The notes beneath the pieces were generated by a model. The model saw only the letters and a list, made by a program, of their open reading frames with translations, was not told the DNA's origin and made no database searches. 64,000 nt of DNA, from positions 11,871,001-11,935,000 of the forward strand of contig NC_060114.1 in NCBI RefSeq assembly GCF_021155765.1, in the 5' to 3' direction. Shown one piece after another: positions 5,352 to 63,557 of the stretch. The DNA is from Diprion similis. Its lineage: Eukaryota > Arthropoda > Insecta > Hymenoptera > Diprionidae. The translations under genes and the position numbers were made by a program. Numbering within the stretch: the first letter of the stretch is position 1; the number at the start of each line of letters is the position of its first letter.

Positions 5352-8300
5352 CTAGGTGTCCGTCTGCCTCGGCGGAGCTCCGTGAACCTGCGGCACCGCG
5401 ATCACGAATATGTCCAATTTCTCGCCCGAGGTCTTGTCCGTGATATCGCCGTAATATATCGAGTCGTACGGCGGCGGTGCGAAGAGGTGATAAGGCGGGG
5501 GCGGCGCGTCTTGGACCCCGAAGGACGTGCTGTCCGGTTCACCGGGTTGAGTGTACGTGATGCCCATCGGGCGGGCCCCGCGGCGACAACACCATTCCGA
5601 ACAGCTAACGACGAGGAAGAACGCCACGAGACCTCCGAAGGATCCGATGTACCAGACGATCGACCAGGGATCCAGAGGACTGTTGGTTGTTGCCTGGACG
5701 CTCTCTGAAATTATCGAAATAACGATCGTTTAAATACTTTACTTTACTAGAGTTCGCTGTCCTCAGCCACGTCCGATTTTTTTTTCCCCAAAATCAACAA
5801 GCCCCCATCTCAAAATGTGCTCTCTGAATATGAATCAGTTCTACGTATACCCACTGGAGAAAATCAGTGTACGTCGAGTTATTTTCTTGATGCGCCCCAT
5901 AGAGACCCCTAAGTATAGGCAAATCAAGGTATCAGTCCACTCTGGCAACTCCGTTGCTCTTTTGTTTTCAATCTCGGTGAAATACTCGGAGCTACTCGGA
6001 GTTGCCTTGTACCCTGGTTTGCCTAAAATTAGGGGTCCCCATTGGGAACATGACGGAACTGGGAATCAGTGAATTTTTACTGATTCAAGTTTAGAGAATG
6101 GTTCAACAAGATCGTGTGATGTTGTCGAACTGAATTCAGAGATGGGGTTTTGTTGATCTCAGCCGTCGATTCGTTTGCGTATAGACTTGCTGCCTGCGCA
6201 ATGAGGATTTCCGCAAGGACTAAACCTGCGAAAGTGTGATATCTAGACTGATAAGTGCCGCGCGTGTGCGGCACAGTCACCTCGGCATTGTATATTTTCT
6301 TTTATATCGCGCGACGTTGACACAAATGAAACCGCAAGTTTATTATTTGCACTTTTGCAGCATGGCGAACAAAAGTAGGTGTCGGTGTGCGTTACAATGT
6401 TCCTGGCAAATACGTGTGTCACGATGTTTACTCGAGTGTAAATCCCTCCCTCCGAAAAGCTCATAGGCCGGTTAACAACACTACTGTGGAACTTGGAATA
6501 AGATATATAGGTATGTACAGTGTTTTCTCAGAATTTAAGATTGCGGATTCTCGCGCGCTCGCGCAGGGTTTTTCCCAGTCCTTCTACTTTTATTTTCTTG
6601 TTTTGTTTTTTGTTTTTTTTGTTTCGTGATTCAGCGCTATAAATTTTATCCTGCACTACATAATGAAAATTATATCTGCACTAAATTTAACAAAAATTAG
6701 GATTGTAAGGAAATGTACTATACTTTTCATCGATTTTCAAAGGCCTCTGCAATTACGTATCATATGCTTTTTCTTCCATTACTTTCATTGATCTAATCTG
6801 TAGCTCAATATAATTGTCTATGTGAAAAGCGTGTCGAATGACGTCACAATAATTTACATAAATGAAAAATTTTCTATGATAAAATATAAATAAGCTACGA
6901 GAACGACTGACCCTGAATAACGCGTAGGTATTATACGCTACTCGTTTCAAGTACACGCGAGTACATGAGAGCATATTTGCGTCAGCATAGATCTTGATTC
7001 GACGAGTAAAAAACTTCCTTGAAGTATACTACGTCTAGAAGAAAAGAAATTTTTATAACCGAACTCAACTACTGATTGTGAGAATCGATTGAATACAGCG
7101 TCCTTCTGCAGTTATAAATGTTGAAAGTTTCTGCAGAAATTGCGCAACTCTGCGAGAGACAATGTCTTAAGAACCGCTGAACCGATCAATGAACGAGACT
7201 GCAGACAATAAAATTTGTAGACCAGTAGATTATCACTGCACAGTTACCCATCGTGAGTGGATGCCGGATGCGGGGATCTAATAACCCGTTTCCGGTGAGC
7301 AATGGATATCTAGTGAGTCGAAATGTCTATTTCCTCTGAACCACGATGGCCGCAGCAGCAAATGGTCATACCAACTGACGCACGTCGGTCCAAAGGGAGT
7401 GGAAACTTCTACGTAGTAGCTGAATGAAAAGTTGTTATGCAGTTTCTCGGCATAACAGAGGATGACGAAACAGTGGAAATTGATTCGAGAAAGTTAATTC
7501 TCAATGATGAAAAATGGCTAACTTGGCTGTAATTGTGATCGATTCATTGTGCAAGCTGACAGCCTGCACCGATCAGAGAACGATCCTTGAGAATATTGAG
7601 AGCCCTCGTTTTTGTTATTCAGAGTTAGCGTTCGTGCCGAATCGTGCAGTCTGGAGGTGCGGAGATAGGACCAATTCAGAGCAGGCTTTCAATGCTTAGC
7701 AGGCACGTGATTCAGAGTATTTCGATCGAAACATCTCTATCCTGCAGAATAACGCCATATTCGAATTAAAAATGACAAAACGTACCAGTTGTGTTATTCG
7801 TCGACGCATCTTTGACATCGTCGGTTTCAGATTCGAACTCTATAACGTAAACGGAGCCTCCACGTTGCTCGACGGTTCGCCCGTTGATTGCGTTTTTCAG
7901 AATTGAGTCTTCGTCGTCGCCGTCGTCGTTGTCATCGTCGTCGTCACCTTCGTCGTCGTCGAGACGCTGGAGAATCTCCGCTCGCCGGTTGGTCTCAGTG
8001 ACGTCATAAGCCGCCAATCCCCGTGCGTAAGCTGGACATACAGAAACGGGTTTTTATCAATAACATATTTATGTCGTACATGCATGCCTCACACACACTC
8101 ACACATACGTCGAAAGAACCAAGAACCGCGGGAATAACCTATCAAGGACGTTGCTGTGACCTGTTCAACGATTGGACAGTCGGCCCCACCTCGTTAATGG
8201 AAATTATATACATTCATCCTACTCCATGATGGACATTCCAAAGTCTTGACTGCCGAAGCAATTTAACTATTACGTATTATCGACTCGATTCCCAGGCGCA

Positions 8301-11300: not shown

Positions 11301-12331
11301 ATCTGTGTAGTATAATTAAAATCTTTACAATAAAACCATTCAATTATTCGCTAGCGATGTACTTGTGCAGAGATGACTTTTGTCGCCATTAAAATAGGTG
11401 TAATTAAGTTGAAAAAAATTAACAGTATTAGACAAGGAAAAACGTATGTATTTCTACCCAATTTGGCAGCAGTTACACGTGAGAAATTAAACGTCCCATA
11501 TACTGTTATAATACATAACAATATCGTCGGATTAACAAGCTTCGATGAAAGTTTACAACGCAGCAAAGGTCATGGCAGGAGAGCTGTGTTTGCCGCGTGA
11601 GATCGCATGCTCACGTAGTATTACACATCGTATATATGTGCCGAAATGTTAATCTTTTAATTTTCTCGACAGATATTATATAAATTATAATGAATATTTC
11701 ATTTTGTACGTTGTACATACATTCCGGATGTATGTGTCTTATCACAGATTGGACAAATTAAATAAATCTTATAAATCCTTGTAAACAAATTACATTTTTT
11801 TTTTTTTTTTCATTCATAGTCTCATGCCTTTCTCTTCCATAATCTACGTGTATGTTATACATTGTACTGTAATATTTCTTAACGCCTTAACCTTCCGTCT
11901 AACTATTCTATCCGAAAAAAAATGCGAGTTCGATTCTATACGAATTATTTGACAATGATGACTGGCGATGTAGACGACGTGAGAGATCGGAAGTCAGTGT
12001 CACACAATTCGTATAGAATTGAACTCGCATTTTGTTTCGGACCGAAAACAAGTTAGCCGAAAAGTTAATGCATTTATGCATTTTACTGACAGATGGAGTG
12101 GATAACTACATAGATAGATATAGATGCGTACAACACCTGATTGCGAGTAGCGTAATGGAATACTGTTAGAAAAAGAAGAAGAGAATCGTGTAGCTCCCGA
12201 GTAAACGCTCAGATATCAACTTCCAGTGCCACAAGTATTATCGAACAAAGGCAAACACGCTCAACGCTAGTAGGGGTATCGCGTACATTTGAAATTCAAC
12301 CCGTACTTCTGTACTTACTTATATTTACAGA

Positions 12332-12380
<49 letters not shown>

Positions 12381-12506
12381 AAATAGCAAGAGTGTAATTT
12401 AATTACCTGGTAACGGTGCTGTGAGAAAAGCTTCGCTCCGTCCATTCGCGGGTAAAATAACAAACGCCAGGAAACATAAGAAGAAACACTTGACAGAGAA
12501 AACCAT
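5352..12506 (-). CDS. Type I membrane protein with acidic ectodomain and PPxY tail (function unknown)
   Basis: Three exons join in phase on the minus strand: 12506-12407, 8031-7786 and 5704-5352. They give 699 nt, 232 residues. Residues 1-24 form a signal peptide with a hydrophobic CFFLCFLAFVILPA core after the start Met. The ectodomain has a strongly acidic Asp/Glu run (about residues 55-75) and possible N-glycosylation at NNTT. A single membrane helix follows (WSIVWYIGSFGGLVAFFLVV, about 130-150), then a basic Cys-rich stop-transfer stretch. The cytoplasmic tail carries PPPPY and APPPYDS, which are PPxY motifs of the kind bound by WW domains of NEDD4-family ligases. Introns are 4.4 kb and 2.1 kb. 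I do not recognise the family; resemblance to Commissureless, NDFIP, VOPP1 or Shisa proteins is only architectural. The model rests on consensus splice borders and matching phases. Confidence 0.75.
5831..6087. repeat. Long imperfect inverted repeat, MITE-like, in an intron
   Basis: Two arms of roughly 110 bp face each other. Both outer ends read TGAATCAGT inward. The best-matched inner part is GACCCCTAA...TAGGCAAA and, further in, GGCAACTCCG on one side against its complement on the other. It lies in intron 2 of the PPxY membrane-protein gene, starting 127 bp upstream (in the gene's sense) of the last exon. No clear target duplication is visible, so the transposon class is undecided. Confidence 0.5.
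11891..12065. mobile_element. piggyBac-type MITE flanked by TTAA
   Basis: A 175-bp element flanked on both sides by TTAA (11887-11890 and 12066-12069), the target site of piggyBac transposons. The arms are long imperfect inverted repeats of about 65 bp. Their best-conserved part is ATGCGAGTTC(A/G)ATTCTATA followed by CGAATT. There is no coding capacity. It sits in intron 1 of the PPxY membrane-protein gene, about 340 bp downstream of that gene's first exon in the sense of transcription. Confidence 0.65.
12339..12376. repeat. (CA)n dinucleotide microsatellite
   Basis: About 18 uninterrupted AC units with a shorter imperfect run before them. On the transcribed (minus) strand this is a (TG)n tract starting about 30 nt after the exon 1 donor of the PPxY membrane-protein gene. 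Length variation between individuals is likely. Confidence 0.95.
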
Positions 12507-37466: not shown

Positions 37467-40400
37467 ATGGATCCTGCCACCGTGATAGCTCTCTGCAAAG
37501 AGAACATTCAACCGTTACGTCACGGAAGAAATGCTACACAATTAGGAACAGCTCTACGTGCTCAGGAAGATTCTGATGCGCAACAGATGCTGCAACAAGA
37601 GAAACAGTGAGTGATTATTAATTTTAAATCGTTATTGACAATTAATGATTATTACTGCCTGTTGTACACTGGCTACTTTGATTTTTGAACAAATGTGATA
37701 TTATTGTGTTGTGTAATAAAAAATTCAAATCTGCTCAATTTTTTAAGTTAATTTCATATACTGCTTAAATTTCCTGTGTCACTAATATGTAGTAAATCTC
37801 TACAGCATGTATGAAGAGGCCATCAAAAATTACCAAGGTGAAGACCCACTGGAAAATTGGTACGAATATATTTTATGGGTAGAACAAAGCTTCCCAAGAA
37901 GCGGCCATGATTCCCATATTGGGAGGCTATTACAGCAATGTCTAGCAACTTTTGAGAAGGAAACCAAATATCATCAGGATCGTAGATTTATAAGATTGTG
38001 GATTAATTATGTGAGTTGATTACAAAAATTTCAAATTGTTTGCTATCTGTTTTAGTGTTAAGTACTCGCCAATTTTATAGTCTGCCATGTTCGAGTGCAT
38101 TTGACTCCATAAATTTTTGATTTTCAAAAAGGTCTAACAATTGAGCCTGTGGCGTTGTATTTTTCAGATAAGTATGCAAAAAAATCCCCTTGAACTTTAC
38201 CAACTTTTACACCACAACGGAATCGGCACTATGGTCGCAGACATGTACAGAGCGTGGGCTTTTGAGTTTGAGCAAAATGAGGACTATAAAAGAGCAGACG
38301 AAATTTATTCCATGGGAGTGGCTGCGCATGCTCAGCCGTATGAAGAACTCACTTGTGCCCAAACGTATGGATAAACAATTGATTGTTTGCCTTTCTTGAT
38401 TTACTTACAGGATTCTTTTATTGTTTACTTATTTTCATCTGACGCGCAGAAATTTCCAACTTGCTGTGGCTCGCAAGATGCTTGGACATCGTGATGAACG
38501 GGGAGCTGCTGCATTAGCTGAGCAACGTCAAGCGTTCAGTTCGTTGCGAGCCATTAGGGGAGGCAAGAAAGTTGGCAGCATTAGAACTGGACAGAGAGTG
38601 CGTGATTATTTACCAGGTTCTGTGCCGCAGGTTTACAATCCCAGCGAAATATCCAGAGAAAATGCCAGGATCCACATATACCAGGTGAGTTTGTAACTTC
38701 GTTTGGCTACATTGTGTCTTTGCTTAAAGGAAAAGAATTTTTCTTTCTTCGTATTGCTATTCAAATAATTTAATTACTGCAGTTTAATATAGTTTTGTTT
38801 TATACCTTTTCATTCCCAGGATGATCTGCCCGGGACTGAGCATAAAGGTTCTAGCATTCTGGATCATGTGCCAATAGAGGAAAGCGTGCATAAAGAGAAT
38901 TCTATAAAACCTGGACCCTGGAGCAGTGCATCTAAGAGAGGTCCATTGATACCTTCGACAATTAAAACATCTTTTAAGGGTAACAAAATTCACAGTGCTC
39001 TTTTGATTTATTTTTCTCCTTTATGATTGCCATGAAAAACTTGGCGATGTATTTCGCTTTTTAGTTGGTTTTTCGGTTTTGCAACACAGTTCTCAATTTT
39101 GCATTATATTTTTTCTGATTTCAGTTCACGAGGATCATCCAAGTGAAAACGATATGGATAAATTGCGACTATTTCCGAATCATACGCCGTTCTTTGATGG
39201 AAGCAAGTACCATGAACATTTACAAGTACCTGTTTTTGTACCAGACCCGCCAAGTTCGGACATTATGCGCAAGGTGCATTACCCCAAAGACCTAGTGTAC
39301 GCAGACAACGTGGATTTAAGTATGGAAGAAATTAGGGCGCAGAAATACATGAAGAGGTAAGTTTTACAGGCTTCACCCTGTACTGGGCAGTTAAGTTTAA
39401 TTGGATTTTGTTCGTAGAGCGAAGCAGAGCTTAGAAAAGAGTAATCCAAAAGGAGAGTGTGAAATAGGCAATCAGAGATATGAAATGGAGCAAAATAATC
39501 ATCGGGACAGCGATGAAAATAGGCAACGATTGTCGGAAGAATTGTCAAGGTTAGAGAGACAGAGGCAAGAAGCGGAGCAGCGTGAACTGGAGCAGCAACG
39601 ACATATCCAGCGGCAAAGGAGGGAGGCTGAACAAAGAGCACTGGAGAGACAGAGAGAACTGGAGAGACAAAGGTTTGAGGCAGAGCAGCGGGAACTAGAG
39701 AGACGGCGGCTGGAGGCGGAGAGAATAGAAGCTGAAAGAATAGAAGCTGAGAGAATCGAAGCGGAGAGAATGGAAGCCGAATTAAATAGGCAACAGAAAA
39801 TTCACAGCTCACGCTATATGACTCAGCATCATAGGTCTGCAGGGCAAAATAACCCCGTCGAACATTTGCTGGGGCAAAGTATAACTGTAAATACAAAAGA
39901 GGCGATGTCCGTTGTGCAGGACCTCTGGAATTCACCTGATCAAAATGCCAGTCCTGTTTCTATGCCTGGAAACGGAATAAATCATGGTTTAGTAGAACCG
40001 AGAAGTAAACTTGTGTTCGACATACATATGGACAGCTCCATGACTCAACATGCGATTACTGGGAACAAACACCATCAACAGTACAATTTGCAACCGTACA
40101 GTGACCAAGAAAATCATCAACACTACCCACCTACTTACACGAGTCCTGAACACCAATCACCTTACGGGAATCACGCTTATCATAATGCCTACCATTACCA
40201 AATGCAGGTAAAGTAATACAACTAAATATGTCGTTGCTACATCTGTAAACCATTACGTTGAGTTTTTTTGCTGCTAGGTAATTGCGGAATTTTAGCTTAT
40301 ACACTCTTTTTAAAAATTGTTTTCAGCCGCATCATCAACCACACGTTCAGCATCAGCCACATATTCAACCACCACCACACATGCAGCAACATGTTCAACC

Positions 40401-43313
40401 CCAGCAACATCATCAACAGCAACAACCTCAGCACCATCATCATCAACAGCACCATCAACAACACAGTATTTCTACGCAACAGCAACAGCAACAACAGCAA
40501 CATCATCCCTCAACTCACATGCAACATCAGCAACACCAGCAACACCAGCAACATCATCACATTTATGGAAATATATCTGCGAACAGTAGCATTGGTTATC
40601 AATCGTATCATAGCGCAATAGGGTCACCACCGACACATGCCAATGGAGTTCAGCCTCAGAAACAGGTTCAATTTACACCTTACATAGATCCCGACTTGGA
40701 ATCTAGTAAGCCATATAAAATGCCGTCTGAATTGCCTTATATTAAATCACCGGGAATGAATCGAAGAGATCTCAAGTACTTAGAAGGGGCTGAGGACAAA
40801 GAGAATGCAATTTCCGTCGACTACAACGGTCCCTTGGAGGATGAGGCTGGCCCCAAACAATCTGAGCAGGACAATTTATACATCGACGAAAGCCTTGGTA
40901 TCACTCCTTTGGCCAGTGAAAATGAAACTTGCTTTACACAGGCGTTCAACAACCATTTGACAGCTTCGACGCCAATCACCAACCATTTTAGGCAATCGTA
41001 CAGAGGCAAGGAAACGCAACAGTTCCAGGAACATGATATACCTTCTCAAGGGTACGTTGTTCAGTATGATCAATGTCATTATTGTAACGATGAGTTATTT
41101 TTACTCGATTAACGAAGAAGGTTAATCACTCTTCTAGATATACAAAATTTCATTTTCTATTTTCACCAGTCTGTCATTTTGGTTACTAACGATCAGTCAT
41201 TCTTCTTTTTACACACAGACCAACTGAAACACGAAGCTGCGAAGGCGAAGAAAATAAATTGAGCGTCATAATGGAATCTACTCGAGAGTATGTCTCAAGT
41301 TCCTCTGGAAGCAGTGGCGCTCAGACGAGAACTCCTGGGCTAGGGTTTACTTTAACAAGGGAAGATTTATTACCTATAAAAGAGCAGTCAACAAATCAAG
41401 GTGCGTACTGGAATTCGAGAAACAACTTATTTCTCTATAATTTGAAATTCTTTAATTTTAGTACATGAGATGATTGAAATTCTTTTTGTTGAATGATAGA
41501 CATGGAATCGACAGAATACTTGCTTGCGGCGAATCAAACGTATGAGCAAAAAATGAGAGCTCAAATTCAAGCCGTTCATGCCCAGAGTCCGCGAACTGTA
41601 CAGCGTAACGTGGATCAGATAACATCCGAGATAAAAAACAGTTGCGATCTTCGTAAGGCGATTACTTTTAAGCCTGAAAATGATGATTCTATGGAGTTTG
41701 AAGAACATGAACCTATGGAGGAGGTTGAGGAGGAAACATTCGAACTTCCTACTGGGGATATTAACCCATTCGACAAAGGCTTGATAACCGGCTTGTTGAG
41801 GAAAATCAAATTCCCACAGCCACATCATGCAGTTGGATATACCAAATTGGATTCGAATATAAATAAATTTGTGCCTTCTACTATGGTGACGTTTGGTGAG
41901 TCTGTTCATTCATAATTCGAATACTAAATTCCTAGTGGACTGATATTTAATACATCATTTTAGATAATTTTGTGAGAAATCCGATCTTTAGTTGACTTAG
42001 TTTGTAAGTTCTAAATGTTAATGAATGATAAATCTGGAAGCTCTTGTTCAAACATGTGACAGTTAATAACCACTTTCATATGCGTAAAAAGTATGACGTG
42101 CATATTTATTTATTTATTCATTTCATACATTCTATAGGTACGGAAGCGTACGATTTAGAAAAGTGCCTTGGAAAAGGAACCTATGGAACAGTGTATAAAG
42201 GTATAAACCTTCAAACTGGTCAGGCAGTTGCTTTGAAAACGCAAAAACCTGCCTGGGTGTGGGAGTATTATATTGCAAGAGAAATAAAGGCTCGCTTAAC
42301 GAATCCTCACATGGTAAGTAAAGTACGAAGGATAAATAATACCGAAATATTTTGAAACAAGTTTCATGTGCATTTATTGTGCTTCAGCTTCGCGGATTTA
42401 TGGACATAACGACAGCTTACGTTGCAAATAACGCAAGCACTCTCGTTTCCGAATTTTCAAAATATGGGACTCTCCTCGCTGTGGCGAATCAGGTGAAATT
42501 AGCTACTGGCAAACAACTGGGAGAGCCGTTGGCAATATTCTTTACAATTGAAATGCTGCAAATCGTCGAGTATTTGCACAAATGTCAAATCATACATGGA
42601 GATATAAAACCGGACAATTTTCTACTTATGCATCTGTGAGTATATCCTCTCATTCCTGTCGCCTTTTTACATCAAAGTAAAACATGTTTCTTTCAACTTT
42701 CCACGTTTTGTTTCTGCAGACCTTCGGATGACGTTAGACCGACTATACAGCTAATAGATTTTGGCTGTAGTATTGATATGAGTCTGTTTCCCGAATCGAC
42801 AAAATTTACTCACGTTATTAAAACTGAAGATTTCACATGCATCGAAATGCAAACTGGAAAACCGTGGACTTATCAAACCGATCTATATTGTTTAGCCGCC
42901 TCAAGTCACTGCCTACTTTTCGGCAACTATATGCGCGTATCAAATAATAATGGCCGATGGTTCATCAACTCGAAAATACCAAGGTAAATAACTGATAATT
43001 ATGGAAGTATCGTTCTTGAAAGGTCGACATTTTTTTTCTTCTCACTCTTAATGAATAGCTGATGGTTTTGAATGGGTATTTCTTACCTTGACTTTGAACT
43101 GAATTTATGATCAACGTCACATTGTCCATTATTTTCAGGTACGTCAAAAAGGCTGCATGGGAAAGATACTTCACTGAATTATTGAACATCGAATCTTGCG
43201 ACAAGATGCCTGACCTCACTGCGCTACGCAATGTACTTGAAGAAATTTTGTCACAAGTATCTGACCTGCGAACACATTTAAGATCCTTCTCGAACACCCT
43301 GAACAAACGATAA
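37467..43313 (+). CDS. BUB1/BubR1-type spindle-checkpoint kinase
   Basis: Fourteen exons (37467-37606, 37806-38010, 38168-38364, 38450-38684, 38820-38979, 39125-39356, 39418-40207, 40327-41051, 41219-41400, 41500-41895, 42138-42313, 42388-42635, 42720-42983, 43139-43313) give 1374 residues. The first KEN box (residues 11-13, in KENIQPLRHGR) precedes the Mad3/BUB1 TPR-like region (about 45-190). A GLEBS-like Bub3-binding motif ends in EEIRAQKY (380-387), and a second KEN box is at 811-813. The C-terminal kinase domain (about 1090-1374) keeps the glycine loop (GKGTYGTVYKG), HGDIKPDN (Asp 1218) and DFG (1242-1244), so it looks catalytically competent. This mix fits BubR1 or an undivided MadBub protein; I give no symbol because BUB1 and BUB1B cannot be separated without a genome-wide search. 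Exon 7 encodes a charged Glu/Arg coiled coil and exon 8 begins with a Gln/His-rich tract. Confidence 0.93.
39540..39795 (+). repeat. Glu/Arg coiled-coil repeats in the checkpoint kinase
   Basis: Within exon 7, imperfect units based on ELERQR.EAEQR are followed by four consecutive 15-nt units coding RIEAE (the last is RMEAE). The encoded stretch should form a single long charged helix. It lies between the GLEBS-like motif and the Gln/His-rich tract, in a part of the protein that is normally poorly conserved. Confidence 0.8.
40327..40563 (+). repeat. Gln/His-rich trinucleotide tract in coding sequence
   Basis: The first 79 codons of exon 8 are almost entirely CAG, CAA, CAT and CAC, with a few Pro, Val, Met, Ser and Thr codons. 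They give a Gln/His low-complexity segment (about residues 654-732) that includes an uninterrupted run of eight Gln. Interruptions by synonymous codons suggest it is older than a fresh slippage expansion. Confidence 0.9.
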
Positions 43314-45697
43314 CGCTTATTAAATCGAATCCATTGATCATTATGTCCCCAACTTCCCACCCCCTAGTAAAAGAATTCATTACTATTATTATAATTATAA
43401 AATTTGAAATTAATATTGTGATATTTATTATTCCATTATTATAATATTGTATATCTATACATAGTAGGGAAGGAATGGAGTTACTTGTTTGTCTTCTCTC
43501 TCTTTCTCTCTCTCTCTCTTTCCATCTCTTTTATCTCTTAGTTTTTCTTTGATTTTTCGTAACGTAATTTTATCCGTTTCATTCAAAAACCAATTTGTAT
43601 CTATCAAATTGTCAACAATCGATTTAGATGAAACACAAACCAGGGTACTTGTTTGGTTTCTTTTTCCTCTTTAAACTTGGAATACCATTTAACAACGTGG
43701 AGCTATAGTAGTAGTATCTAATTTATTACAATTCGAATCAACAAGTATATGAAAGTTTTTATTAGGCCAGATTTGCACTAGTTTCTTGTTCTATTTTTAG
43801 CAGCAATTGTTATCGTTTCGTTTTCTCCACCGTTTTCCTTCTTCTAGTGTTTTACTTTGATCCCTGCAATAGCGACTCAGAAAGTCTTAATAATATAGAT
43901 ATTAATTGTAAAAGAATGATTGATCTGTTTTAAATCAACGATTTTGAACAAATGCCACAATAACAGTATGTAATAATAGCTATTATAATATTCAGATAAT
44001 AGGTAAGATTTTTTGTTCAAACAATAATTTTTACCTTGAAATTATAATGTGCTATTTGTTAGGTAATGTCCGAAATGAGAAAGAAATAATAATTTAACTG
44101 TGCCTCCTGGTATTGAAGAACAGGACTGAATGAGTGATTCGTAGATAGAATTTTGAAAGACAGAAAGAAAAACATGGTCAATTTATTCTACACGCCATTG
44201 AATTCTGCAAGATACCTTTTTTTTCATCTATCCACTTTTCACAGGCCTGTAACACACATGCAGCTGTACCATCTACACAATAACTTAATCTGACCGGACA
44301 AAGTTACCAAGGCTTCTGTTCGCTCGGTGAATGCACTATTAGATAATTTTATGATTGAATACGTACCTACAGTATAGAAATATACATTACATTAGGCTCA
44401 GAGACCTTTAAATCATAGTAATAATAATAATAATAATAATAACAATAACGATACTATACACAATTTAAACATCATAGTATTTTAGTATAATAGCTAATCA
44501 CTATCGACGGAGCACCAAGTGCCCAGGGACTTTGAAAAGCTAAGAAAACATGCCTTACCTTACATTGACGGTGCAGCATCGCAGTATGATATTTAACTTT
44601 GTAATTACAGTACGCTCTTCGACATAGTGTTATTAAAGATTAGAATAAGAAGACGGTAAAGAACGGTTAAGTTATTTATTTCATGTACGATTGTGTCAAG
44701 AATTACCTTTTATTTATGTGTCATAGGAATTGGACAGACAGTCTTTCAATTTATATGGTAATTGTGAATACAAAATATACGTATATGTACAGTCGATCGG
44801 TAGAGTTAATTTTTCAGTAAGTCTGCCTGTCCACTTCAAAAGATATTTTTATTCGATTATTTTTTTAACTTACTTGAATAATACTTGTTTTTCACAAATT
44901 GCGGTAGAGCTGTAAAGAGCATTCTTCATAAACACATTTACTAATCAACAAGCTAAGTTGCAGCACCGTCTCCTGATAGTAAGGATACCAACTTGACATA
45001 CTATGTCTAATACTGTCCAAAAAATATTGCGCTATCGATTATATTATTGTACGTATGTAATATCAAATTGTGAACTCTTATAAAATAAATAGATATTTAA
45101 AAACTGACGCGATTTACAATGAAATGATTACATCTTATGGACAGAATTTTACGGCATGTAGTGATCAAGTCATCTGAATTAAATGCATTAAAACTTCATG
45201 TGTGAACTCGGCATCTCTTTATATCTTCCGCTTGCCTGTACCTTAAAATCCATTTTCTGAAGTAAAGTGGAAGAGTTTGAGCCTTCGATTGTAACGGTAA
45301 AAGTCAACATATCATATAATCAGATTAAAATATATTTCCGCATGTAGAAGTAACATTTAAAATTAAATACGATTATTTTGATGATATTGTACATGTAGAT
45401 GTGTATATACATTTTTTAGCTGGCTCAACAACGTAAATATTAAAGTATAAAATTTCACTGTGCATAGGTACGGTTAGATCTATAATTAGTTCGTAATTTA
45501 AAAAAACATCATACCTGGTCTTTAATCATATATTGATTGAAGCAAAGCTGGCACGTTTTTGAGAATACTAATTCACACGATTTATGTTCGGAGAGATTCA
45601 GTCTTATTCACAGTGTGACCTCAAAAATAGGTCAAATTTGATTTGTTAATTGAATATTCATATTGAGGAATTTCATTCGTCATTCATTCTTCAGTAT
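43314..45697. other. 3' regions of convergent BUB1/BubR1-like and IQGAP genes
   Basis: The 2.4-kb gap between two convergent stop codons holds AT-rich sequence, a pyrimidine (TC)n tract at about 43495-43521 and an (AAT)n run at 44418-44442. An AATAAA at 45084-45089 on the plus strand could end a long checkpoint-kinase transcript. No coding sequence is seen. Confidence 0.5.
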
Positions 45698-48600
45698 TTA
45701 GGTTTTCCCATAAAATTTTCGATTTAAGAGAAATAGAAGCAAATTGACATTGATCTTTGCCTTTCCAAACATATCCATTATAGGAGCACCTTCGAATTGT
45801 AACTGAAGTAATTTCTGGATATCTACATCAACCTTTTCCATTTCAACTCCCATGAATTTACCTCGAACAGTGAAAATTCCACTGTGTTCCGTTGGACTTA
45901 TCTCGAATATTACATTCTTGAACTGCGAATGCGGAAGTCCGTCCACTTCTAGCAGTACTCCTTTCTCCTGAAGCTTAGCTGCCGAGTATTTCAACGTCAT
46001 TTTGGACTTCAACTTACCGTGATTATTCTTCTGAATCGTCTTGTAGGCATGCAAAGACCTGTCAAATATTACATTTAGCATCAGCATAACAGTTGCAAAA
46101 ATTTGATACACATCTTCTCAAGTTTTCATTATTTGAAACAATACTGTAGTTAACTACATTACCCTTTACCAGTGTTGAGGTTCTCCAAACATCGATGTAT
46201 GTACTCGTTGTAAAATTGTACCTGTTCTTCGTAATACTTAGTTTTCTGGTCAAGACTTTGTTTTGTCGCTCTGAGTGTTTGTAGTTCTGTTCTTCTGAGA
46301 ATCCTGTACTTGCTTTTATGGCAAAGATCTTTTGCCACTGCGCTTATTATGTTCTGATAACCATCTGCCCTCGATACCCACCCTCCAAGTTCTAATTTAC
46401 TGAGATAAGCACGCAGCTGAGCTTTACAATCGTTTAAAGATGAACTGCAAACGAAACATTAATGAAACCGTTTGACTTAATCTCGGCAATTCTTTTGCAG
46501 CCAAATTTTTTTTTCTAATGATTCATGCTGATTTTTTTTAAATTTCACACCTTGTACGGACAGTTTTTACCGAGGTCGGGAAGCACGACTTCTTGTCATA
46601 ACGCTTCTCTTCAATCGGTGTTGTATTGTTCGCCAAAGCATCCACTAATGAGTCTCCTTTCAAGAACGGCAACACTGACACCAGCAGCTCTTTTGTTATA
46701 ATAAAAAGTTTGTTCAGACTCGAATCGTCGCTATCAGGTACCTCAAACTTATTTGTCAACACTAAGCAGACCTCTGTCTTCCCAAGACGAACCATGTTAG
46801 ACTCGCAAATAGGATCGGCTGGAAAATATGGTGCCAATAACATCAAGTCGCTAGGATCAAGAGTACTTTTCTTGGAAAATGAGACTAGATGCATGCTACT
46901 CACTTAATCCCATTAATGAAGCTACCGTCGGTGTTTGTCCCAGGTCATCTAACAGCTCGTGGAGAGGATCTAGAGGGTCGGGAGCGATTTGATCCTGATA
47001 TTCAACAACGAGGCTGTGAGTGTCGCAAATTTCCTTGAAAAAAAAGGAATGAAATCAAATTTATTCCAATAGCAAGTTTGACTATGGATATTTTATCAAT
47101 TTTTATTACTTGGAGAGATATGTAAATGTCAGGTTTATGTATTAGAGTTGCTTCCGTGAACTCGTGTATACGGAAATGCTCTTCCAGCTCATCAATTTGG
47201 CAGCAATAACGGAAAAATTTTTTAAACTTCTCATGACACTCAATTATGAATGGATTCAGGCACACCAGATGCATGGCTTCTTCGCCAAACTAGAGTTGAA
47301 AAGAAGAAGAAGCCAAAAAGCAACAGATTAAGTATTAATAAAAGGCAAAGTTTAAAGACTTAACAAACATAGTATTAATGTTCAGTTACCCCTTTTTTAG
47401 ATGCGGCAAATTGGAGGATCTTGGCTATGCTAGCCAAATTTCGTCTTTGGTCGTTAGAAAGTGATCTATCTACAGGGAGAGTTATGATGTCAAATGCATC
47501 GGGTGCGACAATAGCTGCATTGATAAAATGATAGTAAACCAAGTTTCCGACAACTTTCAGGACATCTTTTTCAGCAGCATTTGGAAACTTCTCAGTCAAA
47601 GTGTCATTGAGCACTTTGGCCATGTAAAGCATACCAAATGGAATTAATTTGCGAGACTCTGTAATTCTCGTCAGAAACTCCATAACTGTACTCTTCAAAA
47701 GCGTTATGCCGTTGTTGAGTCTGTGTCGCACTTGTTCATAGCTCAATGCCTGTTGTTGAGTCACCGTGTATGGAAGATTTCTGCAGAAGGATATAAAAAC
47801 ATGAGTCAATGAACTTCTCATAAGTATTCATCAGCTAGACAGCTCTTGAAATTTTAAGAAATGATAATTTCATCGAAGACAATTTATCCTTCCTTACAAT
47901 GTTTGCCCTGTTTCCATTTCTAACTGATTCCTCCAGCACTTATATATATCGACTGGGTTCGTTTCAATATTTATGTTTTTATCGGCAAGTATTTTCTCTA
48001 TGATTGGGCCCACTATTTGGCGCAAAGGATTTTTCCCACTCAATTGGCGAGCGTAAGTGACTACCATTTTTAATACCAATGGATCTCCAGTCACTACTTC
48101 TGAAGGTTTTTGAAATTTAGATCTGAAAGTATCACATTTTTATAAACACTGTTCATATAGAGCACGTTTTTTTCGATAAAACTCGAAAAATTTAATTCCA
48201 TATGAGACTGATATCGAAATTTGCTGACCGAATTTCCTCTTGAAGAGCGCTGCGGAATAGTTTTAGCAGTAAGTACTCTTCCCTCATATTTGAGCCGAAA
48301 TTGAATAGTGTCAGGATAACATTTTGCAAAAACTTGTTGGTCTTGCTCTGCGGCAAGAGGAATAAAAGTTTTGATAAGTACGTAGGATTAGTTTGCAGGG
48401 CATAAAAGAGGTGCTGGTATCCTTCCAGCATCTTACGGCCTTCTTTCGTCAGAGACTTTAGTCCTTTGTGCGAAGACCCTTCGTTAAATGAATTCTTTCT
48501 AGTTCGATTTGTTATCTTATCTTTTGCAAGCGTTTCCAGGTGTTTTCCGTGTACCACTACATCCTACAATTTTAACATTTCCTTCATTCAAGTATTCATG

Positions 48601-51600
48601 GAAATAGTTGCAGATTCGTTCGATTTAAAAGCAAAATTCGATCATGAACTTACCTGCAGAGTTATTCTGTTCTGTATGAGGAGTCCGATTTTTATGTCCA
48701 TGTCATTCAACTGTTGTAAGAGGTTCTGATTATGTCTTATTGTTTGAACTACTTCTGTTCTGAGTTGCTGAAAATAAATTGATCATTCCTAATTTCATCA
48801 TTTCTGATATTTTGTTTCAACTATCTACCTCATTCATGAAGTCATTCTGGTATTTTAAAATCGTTTTGCCGTAATTGTAATTGCAATTTCAATTCATGAA
48901 TGAAAATTTTTTCTTTTGGCAATACCTGTAATTGGAGATCCTCATCGTAGTCTTCAGCGTTAAAGTCTAAAATTGGCAGGAAATTTCTTACACTTGAAAA
49001 TGGCGGTTTGTCAAGATGGAGAAGAGAGTGCAAAGCTCTCCTTGCCGCTCTTCCACGCCATAAGGCCTGAATTTTAATCACCTTGTCTTCCTACAAAACA
49101 AATTACAATAGGTAAATTACAAGCAAGATCTAGTATGAAACTAAAGTACACAGAAACTTGCCTCTTTTTTGTATTGATCGTAAACATTTTGATGGTTTTG
49201 CTGGGAATTATTTTCTTCGTTGGCATTCTTTGTCGAGATAGTAGCGGAGTACTTTCGCTGTAAAATTCGCCGCCACCATCTCTGAATACTGATGATTTTG
49301 TTAATGTTATTATGAAATTCGGCGAAGCGATCGGATATTTTTTTACGTAATAAATATCCTCTAATCGTTGATTGCAACTTAACAATTGCTTTCTCGTTAA
49401 TTCTGCTTAAGTTTGTTTTCAGCTCCTCGATCTCCACTTTGTTTATAACATGCTGAAATCACACAAAAGTTGTCAACTACGATTTTTGTGGTCAACATCA
49501 ATCTCATTCTAAAGCTGATTTTCACCTCAATATCGGTGTTGCTGATGTAATACGTTTCCGAAGCATTACTTGGTTTGTCCCAGGTATAGCTGCACTTATT
49601 CATATCGAGGTACGCTTCATTTCCTGTATTTGTCACGTAACGAATGTACGGGCCAGAGAAATTTTGTAACTGTAATGAATAATCATTTAATATTTCTTGC
49701 TATAAAACTGACAATATTAAAATTATTCCATAGTCTTAAATGATAACTTACCTTATGCTGTTTCAGTTTGTGCAAGAATTTGTGATAGTCTTCCTTATAT
49801 TTTGGAATTATTTTTAGATCGGTTGATCGCAGAGAGTCATAGGTCAGTTCAGCGTCATTTTGATGGACGGCGATGTTGACTTGAGTTAAAAATGTGCAAG
49901 CTGAAAACCGAGATTAATTAATACATTTTTTATCCGCCACTTTTGTGCATTCACTTGAACCCCTCAATCATTACTTGATTAATAAAAGATATGTTTACCA
50001 GCTTGCACTTCCTCCACTTCGTCAACAACAATTTGAGCAACATTATTAACATCCTCGAGCCACAATTCGGACCCATCAGGATGATTTTCCTCCAAAGATT
50101 TTTTGAACAAATTCAAATACAAAGAGGCATCAGCTGGAGATATCTGCTCTTTCAATTTGAGGAGTGGGTTTCGAAGTGCATTGATAACACCAGCTCTACT
50201 ATTGTCTATAACTGCACCGTTCAACTCATTCAGTACCAGGATAACTGTCAATAAAGAACAGTAATTAGCAAAAATTACGTGAATTACAGAGCTCGAGAAC
50301 TTGGAAGACACTCAATATCGATTGCATAGCTATATTATACCTTCATTGTCTTCCTGGCATTGCTGATTTACAATATCTACACATTCCTGGATATCCAAAT
50401 ACGTCAAAAGAGGATTTTCGCTCACAAATACCGCTTGCTTCTGAAGACGAGCTGCTGCTAATGCTCTGTGATACTTCACCTTATTCTCTATATCGAGTTG
50501 CTACATAAATCATCACCATTAAATATGACATTGTTTACCTATACATCTCAAAAGCTTTACACCTTTGAAAATCGACAATTTTGAGATATTAGATCTAAGA
50601 AAATTTGGAAGCTCTACATTAGAATCGATTCTGAAAATCATTCTGATTTCTACAAATTATAACCCACTTGAGCTTTCAATATTAAATATGCAAATTTGAT
50701 TTAAAACTCATCATACAGATACTTGCCATAATGTGCGTTTCAGGGTGGGTCAGTGCTTGGTATGTTAATTCAGGGCTCCCAGTGTCGACTGCTTTGCTGA
50801 TGGCCGCAATTGAAGATAAAACTTTGATGCTAACGATAATATCACTGTACGTGAGATCTTTCTGTAATACAAGTTATACTCATTTATTGATAAATTTATT
50901 TCTAATCAAATACAGACGATTTTTCCTTCGGTATTTAATATCCAAGTATGAGTTACCTCAGACTCAATTCGGTCGATCTTCATCTCCTCGTAATATAAAG
51001 GGGCGGCGAATTCATCGACATAGTATGCTAAACCCAAATTTGGATTCATCAGTGAGTTTAGCAGATCTCTTTGATCACCATTTTGCAACGTGTGATTGAG
51101 TAACTGAACTGCTTCTGTACCTACGATATTTTGAATAGTTGAAAATGTCAGTAAATGTTCATAGATATCTACAGAAATGGAGGAAATTGAAAAAATTTCA
51201 ATCAGTCTAACCAAAAAAGACTGTAGATTCTGTTGGAATCATAATTTTGAAACATTCTGGTGGTAAAAAAACAAAGCAACTAATTGAACTTTTTCTCCCT
51301 TCACAAGTTCGATGTAAAACTAATTATTATTTTTGAAAATTATGGAGAAGCCTACAAAATTTATAAGGCAGCAACGCACTTTATACCGTTGGCAATAATC
51401 TGTTGTCTCTAAATTTGACAAATACTTGTTACCAATACATAACGAGTGGAGTAGAATTGGTTCTGTGAGATACTAACGTCGTTGAGAAATATCTGCTATT
51501 CCGTTAGCAATGTCGACAGACCGTTGAACTAAATCTTTGCAGCGTTGATGCTCAGCAGCTTCGTTCTTCCATTCTGGAGTTTCTATTAACTGCAGCAATT

Positions 51601-54456
51601 CCTTTGCATACATTTCAGCATTTTCGTTTACAATGTTCTGTAACAAAAATGACAAGTTTCCTGATTAAAAATGCAGTGCATTGTCAAAGCAGATTCCAGA
51701 CCAGCTATTGATATACGAAAAAAAGAAACTGACCTTCAATTGAAGTGCTCTCACACTCAAAGCACTAATCAAAGTTTCACTGATTCCTTGGTGAACAGAA
51801 TCCACGACATCTTCTAGAGCGCACTGAACTGTGTATAATATACAACGTTCATATTAATTTTCTTTTCAAAATCTTTGTGCCTGTAGACTAATAATCTTAA
51901 TGAAAAAATTACTGGAATTGTGTGAATGTACTTTTTACGCATCGGAAGAGATACAGACGTCGAAGAGTAAAGTATCAACATATGTATAATAAAATCACGA
52001 TCGTTCTAGGAAAAAAGTGGTCAAATAAGTTACCTAAAATCTTTTCTCTATCTCTTACCATTTACCGCATTGATGTGTCCTTGGATTTCAGCCTGGGTTA
52101 ACAGTTCGTCGTAAGCATCAGGAACATAGCTATCATTCAGAGACTGTAAATACAAAAAGTGAAAATGAACAATTGAGATTTTGACTATTTTACAAAAAAT
52201 ATCAGAAGGGCACGAGATGGGAAAGTAGAAAAAATCCCTTATTTCCCTTATTTGACTAAACATTTATATTTCTGACCCTATTCAGTGCAGCTTGTGTCTT
52301 CAATTCCTTAGCTTTAGATAAACCATCGCAGTATTGACGAATATTACGAGAATCAATATTTTTCAATCTCGCAGCAGGGTTTTGGAGGGTTCCTAACATC
52401 ACGTTTTCCATCTAACAAACAGATACGTCACAATGAATAACATGATAAACTATTAAAGGTAACAGGTACGAATGATGCCTATTTTAACATAATGATATAT
52501 TTTTATTACTTGCCTCCCCATCAAGGGCTTGGTTTATGGCAATGACAGCCGCGTGCAAAGCAGCTGTATCCCCTGCCATTTCGTTAGTTAATAGTCCACC
52601 GATTTTTTGGAACGCTGGCATTGGGAGTCCATATTTTTTTAATTCTTTGCTCGTAGCGTTTATCTCTTCATCTAAACAATCAAGTTGTAATTAGCAAGTT
52701 AAAAACATCATTAGGTGGAAAATAAATAATTGTGAGTGACATTATTGAACATCAAATAATCTTTTCTGTTTATGATATTGTTCAGACTTTGAATGAATAG
52801 TTATTCTTGGATTATCTGGATCTTGATTTGGCAGTGATCATTCTTGGAATAATTCAGTTAACTTGAAGGAGTTGTGGCATTTTTAATCATACCAGTGAAA
52901 TTCACTTTTCCATACAAGTCTTGAATCTGTGGAGCCATCCCCATTTTGAATAAATGTGTACTGAGCGCATGGATGCAGTAGATAACTCTGGGCATATTCT
53001 TTTTGTCGTATATATCTGTAGTTTCTGGTTGAAAAGTCTGCGGTGAAAAAGTATATTGGGTAATTGAAAAAATTTGAATAATGAATATTAATATACGAAT
53101 TACATTGAAAATTGTCAATACAACTGTTTAAATTTACGTTGATAAATTTATGTCGAAATTTTTTCTCAATTTAATTCTTTGTTAAATATGATATTTGATG
53201 ATCTCATGAAATTGTGTGTAGAAATGATAAGCTGGTTGTAACATATTTAAATTCTGTGCAAACATTTTTTACTTTGCATAATCCTTTGCTAATATATTCC
53301 AGCATACGCCGTCTTTCAAATATCCACTCAAAATTAGTCAATTGAGTAAGTATTCAAATAGTTATTTGAAAAATCATGAAAAATCTTCATTTTAGTTTAA
53401 TTCAATATCTCTGAATGATTTCCATACCAAAGGTAGTTGCATGCTCTTTAAGCATTTTATAAAATGATTGATATTGTCTGTGTGGCGAAACTGGAGGCCA
53501 GCAACAGCGTATCGTTTCTGTTCTGGATCATATATTTTGTTATAAGGCAAAACATCCGGTGCGATAAAATGGGACAGCTTTGCCAAGTAAACTCCATTCC
53601 GCAAATTTTCCTCAAGGTCAATAGTTGCTGGTAGTTTCTCCCTCAGACATGCCTCCAGCCACCTGTGCAGGATTGGATAAGACAAATGAGTAAGCGCATA
53701 AATAATCGAGTAAGCGTAAAGTCATAGCCTTTATACTTTTTCGCCTCTTCTAAATGACAAAGGTATTCATATGCGACAGTTTTGTGCCGTTGTTCGTCCA
53801 TTTCCTCAGCCGATTTCCTGGCCTCATCAGTTGCTGTGATAAAACAAAGGAAGAAAATCAGACAGCCTGCTACAGTTCAGGAAAACAATCTGGAGAAGAG
53901 GCATGGATGCAATAACGTTAAAGGAGTGCTGTAGTCGATTTCGACAGTGTCGTATATATTTTCAAATATCGAAACTTATGCACTACGAACGCAAAAAGGG
54001 GTTAAACAGCCCCATTTTATACACAATTCTGAAAGAAAATATTCCGATACATTTTCATTTGCCGCAGAAATAAATACATGGTACAGTGTAAATTTGTAGA
54101 ATTCATGCCATTTCTTCATTTCTGCGTCAAATAAAAATGTGTTGAAGTGTTTCTGTTCAGAATTGCGCATAAAATGGGACTGTCAAGCTCTTTTTCGCGT
54201 TTGAGATACGTGAAAAAGATGACATGAAAGAAAATACTTCAAGTATAAATAAGTATGAGTAATCCGTGTGATGGATATTGCCATAAATTAACTTTTGCAA
54301 GAAACGATGGAGTGCAAAATGACCACGAGCCATTTAAACGATCGTTGAATCTGACAGAGTTTGGTTAATTCAACGACGTGTGGTTATTCAAGTACACTGA
54401 AAGAATAAAAACTTGCCATTTTGAGGGATAATTGTCATCGGAGCAACGTCCCTCAT
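45698..54456 (-). CDS. IQGAP1: IQGAP, Ras GTPase-activating-like scaffold protein
   Basis: Twenty-six exons on the minus strand give 1639 residues (human IQGAP1 has 1657): 54456-54417, 53833-53737, 53662-53428, 53037-52893, 52671-52514, 52393-52277, 52143-52059, 51828-51734, 51637-51478, 51168-50957, 50861-50727, 50500-50341, 50244-49999, 49900-49752, 49669-49526, 49452-49162, 49090-48926, 48767-48654, 48563-48229, 48122-47898, 47780-47390, 47289-47110, 47033-46904, 46818-46551, 46444-46163, 46058-45698. Domain order is an actin-binding CH domain (about 35-155), IQGAP-specific helical repeats, a degenerate WW-like segment, at least three IQ motifs (e.g. VIKIQALWRGRAARRAL), a RasGAP-related domain (about 920-1300) and the RasGAP_C domain (IFEISPTEHSGIF, KINVNLLLFLLNRKFYGK). 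The family scaffolds active Cdc42/Rac1, actin, calmodulin and MAPK proteins without GAP activity. Introns 1, 5, 11 and 16 use GC donors. The first exon rests on phase and promoter position only. Confidence 0.95.
53983..54208. repeat. Palindromic MITE-like element in IQGAP intron 1
   Basis: Two arms of about 90-100 bp are inverted copies of each other. The best-matched blocks are CCCATTTTAT(A/G)C(A/G)CAATTCTGAA and GC(C/A)GCAGAAAT(A/G)AA, with weaker similarity outward through AACGC.AAAAAG. The element occupies about 40% of the first intron of the IQGAP gene and would fold into one long hairpin in RNA. No coding capacity and no certain target duplication are visible; the outer limits are approximate. 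Confidence 0.6.
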
Positions 54457-62382: not shown

Positions 62383-63557
62383 TTAGGGTAAGCCGTAGAA
62401 CAAGTAATTCTCACACCATTCCCGAGCTCCCTCGTGATTCGTGCAGCACCATGGATAAACTACCGGACTTTTTGTCTGCTTTGCGCATCTTTGGCATATG
62501 CTGTCGGTCTGTAATTCAAATACATATTTGCATCGGAAATTAGTTTATTATCCAATAGGTCTATTTTCTCAAACTCTAAATTATGCACACTCTTCACATA
62601 CCTCTGGAGTGCAGGGTTTTCGACTCGAATCCAAAAATGCGGGTTGTCCAAGCGGGTTTATGTTGTGACCTATGGGCTTCCCGTTTGAATCTCCAAGGAG
62701 CAGTAGCGTCAGCAGAAAAACGGTTGTGCAAGTAAACTGTGTGTTTGAATCAAATGAATCAAATTACAAGGCTGATCAATAACCTTTAGAAGCTAGGCTT
62801 ACATCAACGTATTCCATCATCTTACATCTTCTGTCACGATAATTTAGGAGAATAGGAATAGCGTCGTTTACTGTGAGCTATTAAAATTCTTTCCTGTGTG
62901 TGTTCAGAGCGAAGAATAGACCAGAGCTAATATTGTTTGTTCGCTAGTAGTTTCCACGCTAGGCAAATCTTGTTAATAGACATTTATGACAAATTCTCTT
63001 CATTTCTAGAATCAGTTCTATTACTTATATTGGCTCTTTTGTTCTTGACCCAAGAACCGTTTCATGGACATAGTCCGCAGTCCCTGAGCAGTGGCCTAAA
63101 TTCGCTCGTTACTGAGCTGATACGAGACGATAACATAAACATAATTTTGAACTCTGGATCTAGACTATTCAACTATGCGATTATATCAGTTATCGTTTGA
63201 TAAACCTCCAAAGTTTCTCGTTCGCTGTTCACATGCTCAGAGTTAATACAGATTTCTTGAGTGAAGATGTTTTGTTGTAATTGGTTTGCACTTTCTCAAT
63301 AGCATGTTGCAATGCAATTATGACGATCAATTAATTAAACGTGTCTAAGTATAAAGTAAGAATGAGATTTCGACTTTTTGAATCAGACAATTAAAACGAA
63401 AACTCCGAAATCCAGAATTTCCCATCGAGTGGAAACCTTGGGTCCAATTTGCTTTCGGTTGGTCCTATTCGTACTATTTCGCCTGCGTTCAGTATATAGA
63501 TTATGAAAAAAAATTTTAAAAGTAAAATGCACTTACTCTCAGGGTATTGGAAATCAT
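62383..63557 (-). CDS. Secreted six-cysteine peptide precursor (function unknown)
   Basis: Three small exons on the minus strand (63557-63537, 62736-62602, 62508-62383) join in phase 0 at all borders and give 93 residues. The donors are AGA/GTAAGT and GAG/GTATGT; the acceptors are CACACAG/TTT and AATTACAG/ACC. Residues 1-26 (MISNTLRFTCTTVFLLTLLL onward) are a textbook signal peptide ending near DSNG. The predicted secreted chain of about 67 residues has six Cys in the pattern C-x7-C-x2-C-x12-CC-x10-C, around the segments ICQRCAK, VYPWCCTN and EWCENYLFYGLP. There is no dibasic processing site other than an RK near position 51, and no C-terminal Gly for amidation. It could be a hormone, a defence peptide or another extracellular ligand; I do not recognise the family. 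No open frame of normal size reveals it. Confidence 0.7.

Follow-up and report, generated by a model that had tools for sequence, protein, structure and literature searches.

A candidate three-exon gene for a secreted six-cysteine peptide with a HAND-like cysteine register in Diprion similis

Folds of the ITP/CHH type are hormonal in insects, and a 2015 paper by Undheim et al. is said to be the original HAND paper. According to the papers cited here, HAND toxins are regarded as derived from CHH/ITP peptides (PMC8541221; PMC7560641). The six cysteines of Sco-CHH-L lie at positions 7, 23, 26, 39, 43 and 52, which gives a spacing of x15-x2-x12-x3-x8 (PMC8541221). The HAND toxins Ta1a and Ssm6a are described as lacking the C-terminal helix alpha5, and this helix is also missing from one CHH precursor structure (PMC8541221). 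In CHH genes a phase 2 intron interrupts the codon that follows Cys4, the exceptions named in the source being the Caenorhabditis ITP2 genes and the Trichinella spiralis ITP (PMC2841656). Among the SLPTX3 peptides, the cysteine pairs are 5-32, 15-31 and 18-41 in both Ssm6a and SSD609, and 9-36, 19-35 and 22-45 in kappa-SLPTX3-Ssm1a; from these positions we derive one and the same spacing, x9-x2-x12-x0-x8, for all three (PMC7232367). The family is mixed, since one member has only four cysteines, and the helices number four in Ssm6a and three in SSD609 (PMC7232367). A further secreted hormone of insects, eclosion hormone, has six cysteines in most of them (PMC5831470).

Here we examine a predicted peptide gene of Diprion similis (Hymenoptera, Diprionidae; assembly GCF_021155765.1) against these systems. 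The window, i.e., the whole stretch of DNA that was analysed, covers 64,000 nucleotides of contig NC_060114.1 (positions 11,871,001 to 11,935,000, forward strand), and all coordinates below count from its first letter. We judge it probable, if by a modest measure, that a functional gene of three exons lies here and encodes a secreted, HAND-like helical ligand braced by disulfides, which would most likely be an endogenous hormone or paracrine signal and less likely a component of venom or of a gland.

Gene model and precursor

The original prediction joined three exons of 21, 135 and 126 nt, with matching splice phases, into a precursor of 93 residues. Rebuilding the model on the minus strand reproduced the exons letter for letter from the sequence, with both splice phases 0, and recovered the 93-residue precursor followed by a TAA stop. 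The features are listed in the direction of transcription.

63537..63557, minus strand: exon 1, coding part, 21 nt, from ATG; encodes MISNTLR, the start of the signal peptide; donor AGA/GTAAGT
62737..63536, minus strand: intron 1, 800 nt, GT..AG, phase 0, GC 0.357, weak acceptor
62803..62820, minus strand: rival first coding exon (MMEYVD or MEYVD), which a 66-nt intron would link in phase to exon 2
62602..62736, minus strand: exon 2, 135 nt, GC 0.489, donor GAG/GTATGT
62509..62601, minus strand: intron 2, 93 nt, GT..AG, phase 0, GC 0.29, between Cys1 and Cys2
62383..62508, minus strand: exon 3, 126 nt, Cys2 to Cys6 (C57, C60, C73, C74, C84), stop TAA
62206..62211, minus strand: ATTAAA, 172 nt beyond the end of the stop codon; perhaps a poly(A) signal, though a six-base match is weak alone

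Are these consensus splice sites, as had been claimed? We scored them with matrices of our own, built from general splice-site frequencies, and ranked them among the 3626 GT and 3199 AG sites of the strand. The description suits three of the four sites: donor 2 (score 9.35, top 0.4%) and acceptor 2 (6.94, top 4%) are strong, and donor 1 (6.86, top 2.5%) is good. Acceptor 1 is weak, its score of 4.45 placing it only in the top 21.5% of AG sites, which counts against the model.

Exon 1 has only 21 nt, and its placement rests on the splice call. A real gene with another start, either the MMEYVD or MEYVD exon that ends at 62803 or an upstream exon beyond the window, is therefore an alternative to be weighed. 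The donor at 62803 scores 7.02 as against 6.86 for donor 1, and the 66-nt intron that it would open is close in size to intron 2. However, with MMEYVD the hydrophobic core is preceded by two acidic residues and by none that is basic, and a simple signal-peptide rule rejects such an n-region, while MISNTLR supplies a basic residue. We regard a different start as unlikely.

Exon 2 continues with the hydrophobic core of the signal peptide (TVFLLTLLLL) and with the first part of the mature chain, including Cys1 (C49). The claimed signal peptide, with a hydrophobic core and a (-3,-1) site, was found again by a simple rule; cleavage is predicted after residue 22 by our script and after SNG, residue 26, by eye. 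The cysteines stand at residues 10, 49, 57, 60, 73, 74 and 84, the seventh (C10) inside the signal peptide, so that the mature chain reads C-x7-C-x2-C-x12-CC-x9-C. This is the framework originally given except for its last gap, which had been miscounted as x10. If the gene is transcribed as modelled, the precursor would enter the secretory pathway and lose residues 1 to about 26, leaving a chain of about 67 residues.

Neighbourhood and the part of chance

To place the gene among its neighbours, we list the other features of the window, named by reading of the six-frame translations; the strand is given where it was recorded.

5355-5729 and 5103-5348, minus strand: frames of an apparent small membrane protein with one transmembrane pass, a Cys-rich N-terminal region and motifs of the PPxY type
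about 12300-12420: alternating dinucleotide microsatellite
31.7-32.05 kb: RING domain (Pfam); MUL1-like
39401-41109, plus strand: very long, charged, Q/H-rich low-complexity frames adjoining the BUB1-like gene
42.0-42.35 kb: weak kinase match, below cut-off (Pfam); BUB1-like
45701-53721, minus strand: IQGAP-like gene, its limits taken from the six-frame translations
47.4-47.8 and 53.4-53.7 kb, minus strand: RasGAP and CH domains (Pfam, two frames); IQGAP-like
58.8-60.2 kb: AAA plus Vps4_C domains (Pfam); PEX6-like

Ten frames of the window were scanned against Pfam; six matched and four were without a match, among them 5355-5729 (minus strand) and 39401-40213 (plus strand), each with no Pfam match at E<=0.001. 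The 5355-5729 and 5103-5348 frames look VOPP1/WBP1-like. One frame of the microsatellite consists of VC repeats and yields false "Cys-rich" models. Drosophila is not known to have an IQGAP. Searches of the window for tRNAs and for Rfam families (gathering thresholds) found nothing. The peptide gene stands alone between the PEX6-like gene and the end of the window, and a tblastn search of the window (word size 2) gave no paralogue beyond the gene itself, the next-best match, at 501-533, having E-values of 0.47 with exon 3 and 0.70 with the whole product.

The two larger exons differ in composition from their surroundings. GC content falls from 0.489 in exon 2 to 0.29 in intron 2 and rises again to 0.484 in exon 3; the mean in 382 non-coding windows is 0.355, and approximately 6% of these are as GC-rich as either exon. 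Codon usage is less telling. With log-odds trained on 2973 codons from frames judged to be coding, exon 2 outscores 95% of 208 non-coding stretches but only 20% of 177 coding stretches; for exon 3 the shares are 86% of 279 non-coding and only 10% of 185 coding stretches. Higher scores are obtained from one opposite-strand frame of exon 2 and from two further frames of exon 3, and the log-odds are therefore a weak test. GC at the three codon positions is 0.447, 0.479 and 0.511, unlike that of the neighbouring genes (0.505, 0.339, 0.400); in overall GC, too, the exons of the peptide gene exceed these genes (mean 0.411). The chain is short and rich in Cys, Trp and Leu codons, which may explain the odd codon statistics.

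Could the model be a chance assembly, in which intergenic splice-like sites and open frames join by accident and there is no gene? We enumerated gene models under a filter that asks for a signal peptide recognised by rule and for six or more cysteines, even in number, in the mature chain. With donors of at least 6.8 and acceptors of at least 4.4, and with two or three exons allowed, the peptide gene is the sole passing model on both strands of the window; the same fixed filter let through a model of any kind in 3 of 30 simulated strands. When the site minima are relaxed and models of three exons alone are counted, 15 pass in the window and the peptide gene has the highest summed splice score. 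The thresholds of all these tests were set after the case had been seen, and the counts bound chance but do not measure it: a three-exon model with an equal summed splice score appeared in 19 of 400 Markov null strands at loose site minima, in 16 of 600 at minima of 6.0 and 4.0, and, at these same tighter minima, in 11 of 800 strands shuffled within 50-nt blocks.

Splice and signal-peptide filters alone thus leave room for chance. Requiring in addition a GC content of at least 0.48 over exons 2 and 3 leaves 0 of the 600 Markov strands and 2 of the 800 block-shuffled ones, and 0 of these 800 remain when intron 2 may not exceed 150 nt. The cysteine framework argues in the same direction. CxxC-x12-CC-x8/9-C occurs once in the six frames of the window, in exon 3, and in 0 of 1500 simulated strands, although this pattern was picked after the fold match described below and many other known frameworks could have matched; a looser CHH/HAND cysteine pattern gave 14 matches in the 1500. 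We consider a chance assembly quite improbable. It is favoured by the unconvincing codon scores and codon-position GC, by the in-frame rival of exon 1 and by the lack of a homologue in the viral and prokaryotic collections, curated families and solved structures that were searched; the exon composition and the cysteine framework count against it, and so does a confident fold from a single sequence, which one chance control did not give.

Searches by sequence and by predicted fold

The original prediction recognised no known family for the product. By sequence this holds across Pfam, PDB, viral and prokaryotic collections and the literature. A Pfam scan of the product to E 10, in which the HMMER filters drop most matches above about 0.1, listed only a B-box model, at E 1.7 and below cut-off, and neither a CHH model (which Pfam presumably includes) nor an eclosion hormone model. 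The 93-residue product has no match among PDB sequences. With exon 3 alone, phmmer returned five rows from PDB at E<=10, all of them LAMTOR5 (E 1.5-1.7) and none an SLPTX3 chain. Pattern searches gave 4 matches in IMG/VR (viral) and 55 in GTDB (prokaryote), of which 0 were confirmed in either; this silence is expected, because the gene is eukaryotic.

Six short motifs of the product had no match in the text of papers. Among the matches listed from open-licence literature, we saw no insect peptide reported to have this framework and no counterpart among the six-cysteine insect neuropeptides. The passages retrieved on PaOGS36577/fliktin give no cysteine pattern, and we take fliktin to be a linear peptide. 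Trissin and peptides of the insulin-like, agatoxin-like and neuroparsin kinds are provisionally discounted as identities.

By scaffold, however, it does not: in cysteine register and in predicted fold the product resembles the SLPTX3/HAND helical peptides of centipedes. We submitted exon 3 alone to AlphaFold, without an alignment, as 41 contiguous residues with five of the six cysteines; Cys1, encoded in exon 2, lies outside the model. The best model (pLDDT 87.0, pTM 0.57) has three helices, at residues 2-12, 17-21 and 28-38, and the chain stops three residues after the third. Four of the five models reached pLDDT values of 82.7-87.0 and one only 57.6. A single chance control from the same window (44181-44303, minus strand; 41 amino acids, five cysteines) gave a pLDDT of 48.7 and a pTM of 0.27, and had no PDB fold match at E<=10.

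When the exon 3 model was compared with PDB by Foldseek (E<=10), two chains were returned. The better one is 2mun, mu-SLPTX3-Ssm6a (TM 0.69/0.63, rmsd 1.4 A over 35 columns, E 6.0, probability 0.25), and the second has a TM of only 0.31. The E-value of the 2mun match is by itself not significant, and the likeness draws its support from the central cysteine register. Register and fold are not fully independent, because this arrangement of cysteines may itself influence AlphaFold, which may also have learnt SLPTX3 structures beforehand. A fold search of BFVD gave six matches, the first with a TM of only 0.42 (E 5.6).

Relation to known families and candidate function

How close is the predicted peptide to each of the described systems? 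The centre of its framework, x2-x12-CC, is identical to that of the three SLPTX3 peptides for which positions are given, and the flanks differ by 2 and 1: Cys1-Cys2 is x9 in SLPTX3 and x7 here, and Cys5-Cys6 is x8 in SLPTX3 and x9 here (PMC7232367). The exon 3 model covers part of the core, is all-helical and, as in the HAND toxins, contains no counterpart of the CHH helix alpha5. The likeness does not extend to sequence, with 23% identity to 2mun over the 35 aligned columns and no SLPTX3 match by phmmer in PDB. Ahead of Cys1 the mature chain would have 22 residues, if cleaved after residue 26, compared with 4 in Ssm6a. Moreover, SLPTX3 peptides come from centipede venom, whereas the peptide here is predicted from an insect gene.

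With CHH/ITP peptides the product shares predicted secretion, six cysteines, a CxxC-x12-C centre and, in its predicted fold, a helical core. It differs from Sco-CHH-L in having Cys4 and Cys5 adjacent instead of separated by x3, and Cys1 and Cys2 separated by x7 instead of x15 (PMC8541221). In the model a single exon, exon 3, carries everything from Cys2 onwards, so that the CHH-type phase 2 intron after Cys4 is absent, and the intron found here is of phase 0 and lies between Cys1 and Cys2 (PMC2841656). ITP/CHH identity is not supported, since spacing, intron and Pfam match all disagree with it. An alternative is a divergent but true CHH/ITP member, in which helix alpha5 was lost and Cys5 shifted. 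In its favour, the CxxC-x12-C centre is common to both, alpha5 is dispensed with in the CHH precursor structure noted above (PMC8541221), and the best fold match is a HAND toxin, a group held to derive from CHH/ITP (PMC7560641). Given the intron, the two altered spacings and the silence of the CHH model in a Pfam scan whose filters drop most weak matches, we find such a divergent member distinctly doubtful. The likeness to eclosion hormone consists of secretion and six cysteines, and we treat it, spacing included, as a lead.

Of what was originally proposed, "a peptide hormone, defence peptide or other secreted ligand", the gene for a secreted six-cysteine peptide stands as the best reading, to which the resemblance in scaffold now has to be added. 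Our preference for a hormone or paracrine signal within this range is due to the gene being single in the window and to the hormonal nature of ITP/CHH-type folds in insects. Venom genes are often tandem, and we count this single copy, in a window that ends 443 nt past exon 1 and beyond which further copies may lie, against a venom or accessory-gland peptide, in which a HAND-type scaffold would have been recruited for injection or mating. That role is fairly unlikely in our view; it has on its side that the nearest structure in PDB comes from a venom and that precedents are reported in Hymenoptera (PMC7560641).

For the hormone or paracrine signal that we favour, the following picture can be drawn from the precursor and from the analogy with SLPTX3 and CHH peptides. 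Residues from about 49 to about 91 would form a compact helical core braced by three disulfides, the likeliest pairs being C49-C74, C57-C73 and C60-C84 (1-5, 2-4, 3-6), with Cys1 presumably placed as in those peptides. The mature peptide would act extracellularly as a HAND-like ligand on a cell-surface target, perhaps a receptor, and its physiological role would be that of a signal. The gene may thus encode an insect signalling peptide that has not been described before.

One may go a step further and speculate on an undescribed family of endogenous hormones in insects and their relatives, marked by C-x7/9-C-x2-C-x12-CC-x8/9-C and by an intron between Cys1 and Cys2, from which, and not from CHH/ITP, the SLPTX3 toxins were recruited. 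We hold this to be unlikely. Were it true, the view of where the SLPTX3 HAND toxins come from would need revision.

Tiny genes for secreted peptides, with exons of 20-130 nt, are easily missed by annotation. Venom peptides have earlier led to signalling peptides that were unknown until then (PMC10501145), and the peptide gene would apply this venom-to-signal logic starting from a gene. If expressed and conserved, it would provide an insect peptide on the vicinal-cysteine HAND scaffold, which in the sources cited here is described so far from centipede venom, and it would allow a direct test of whether the toxins originated from CHH/ITP or from a separate, undescribed hormone.
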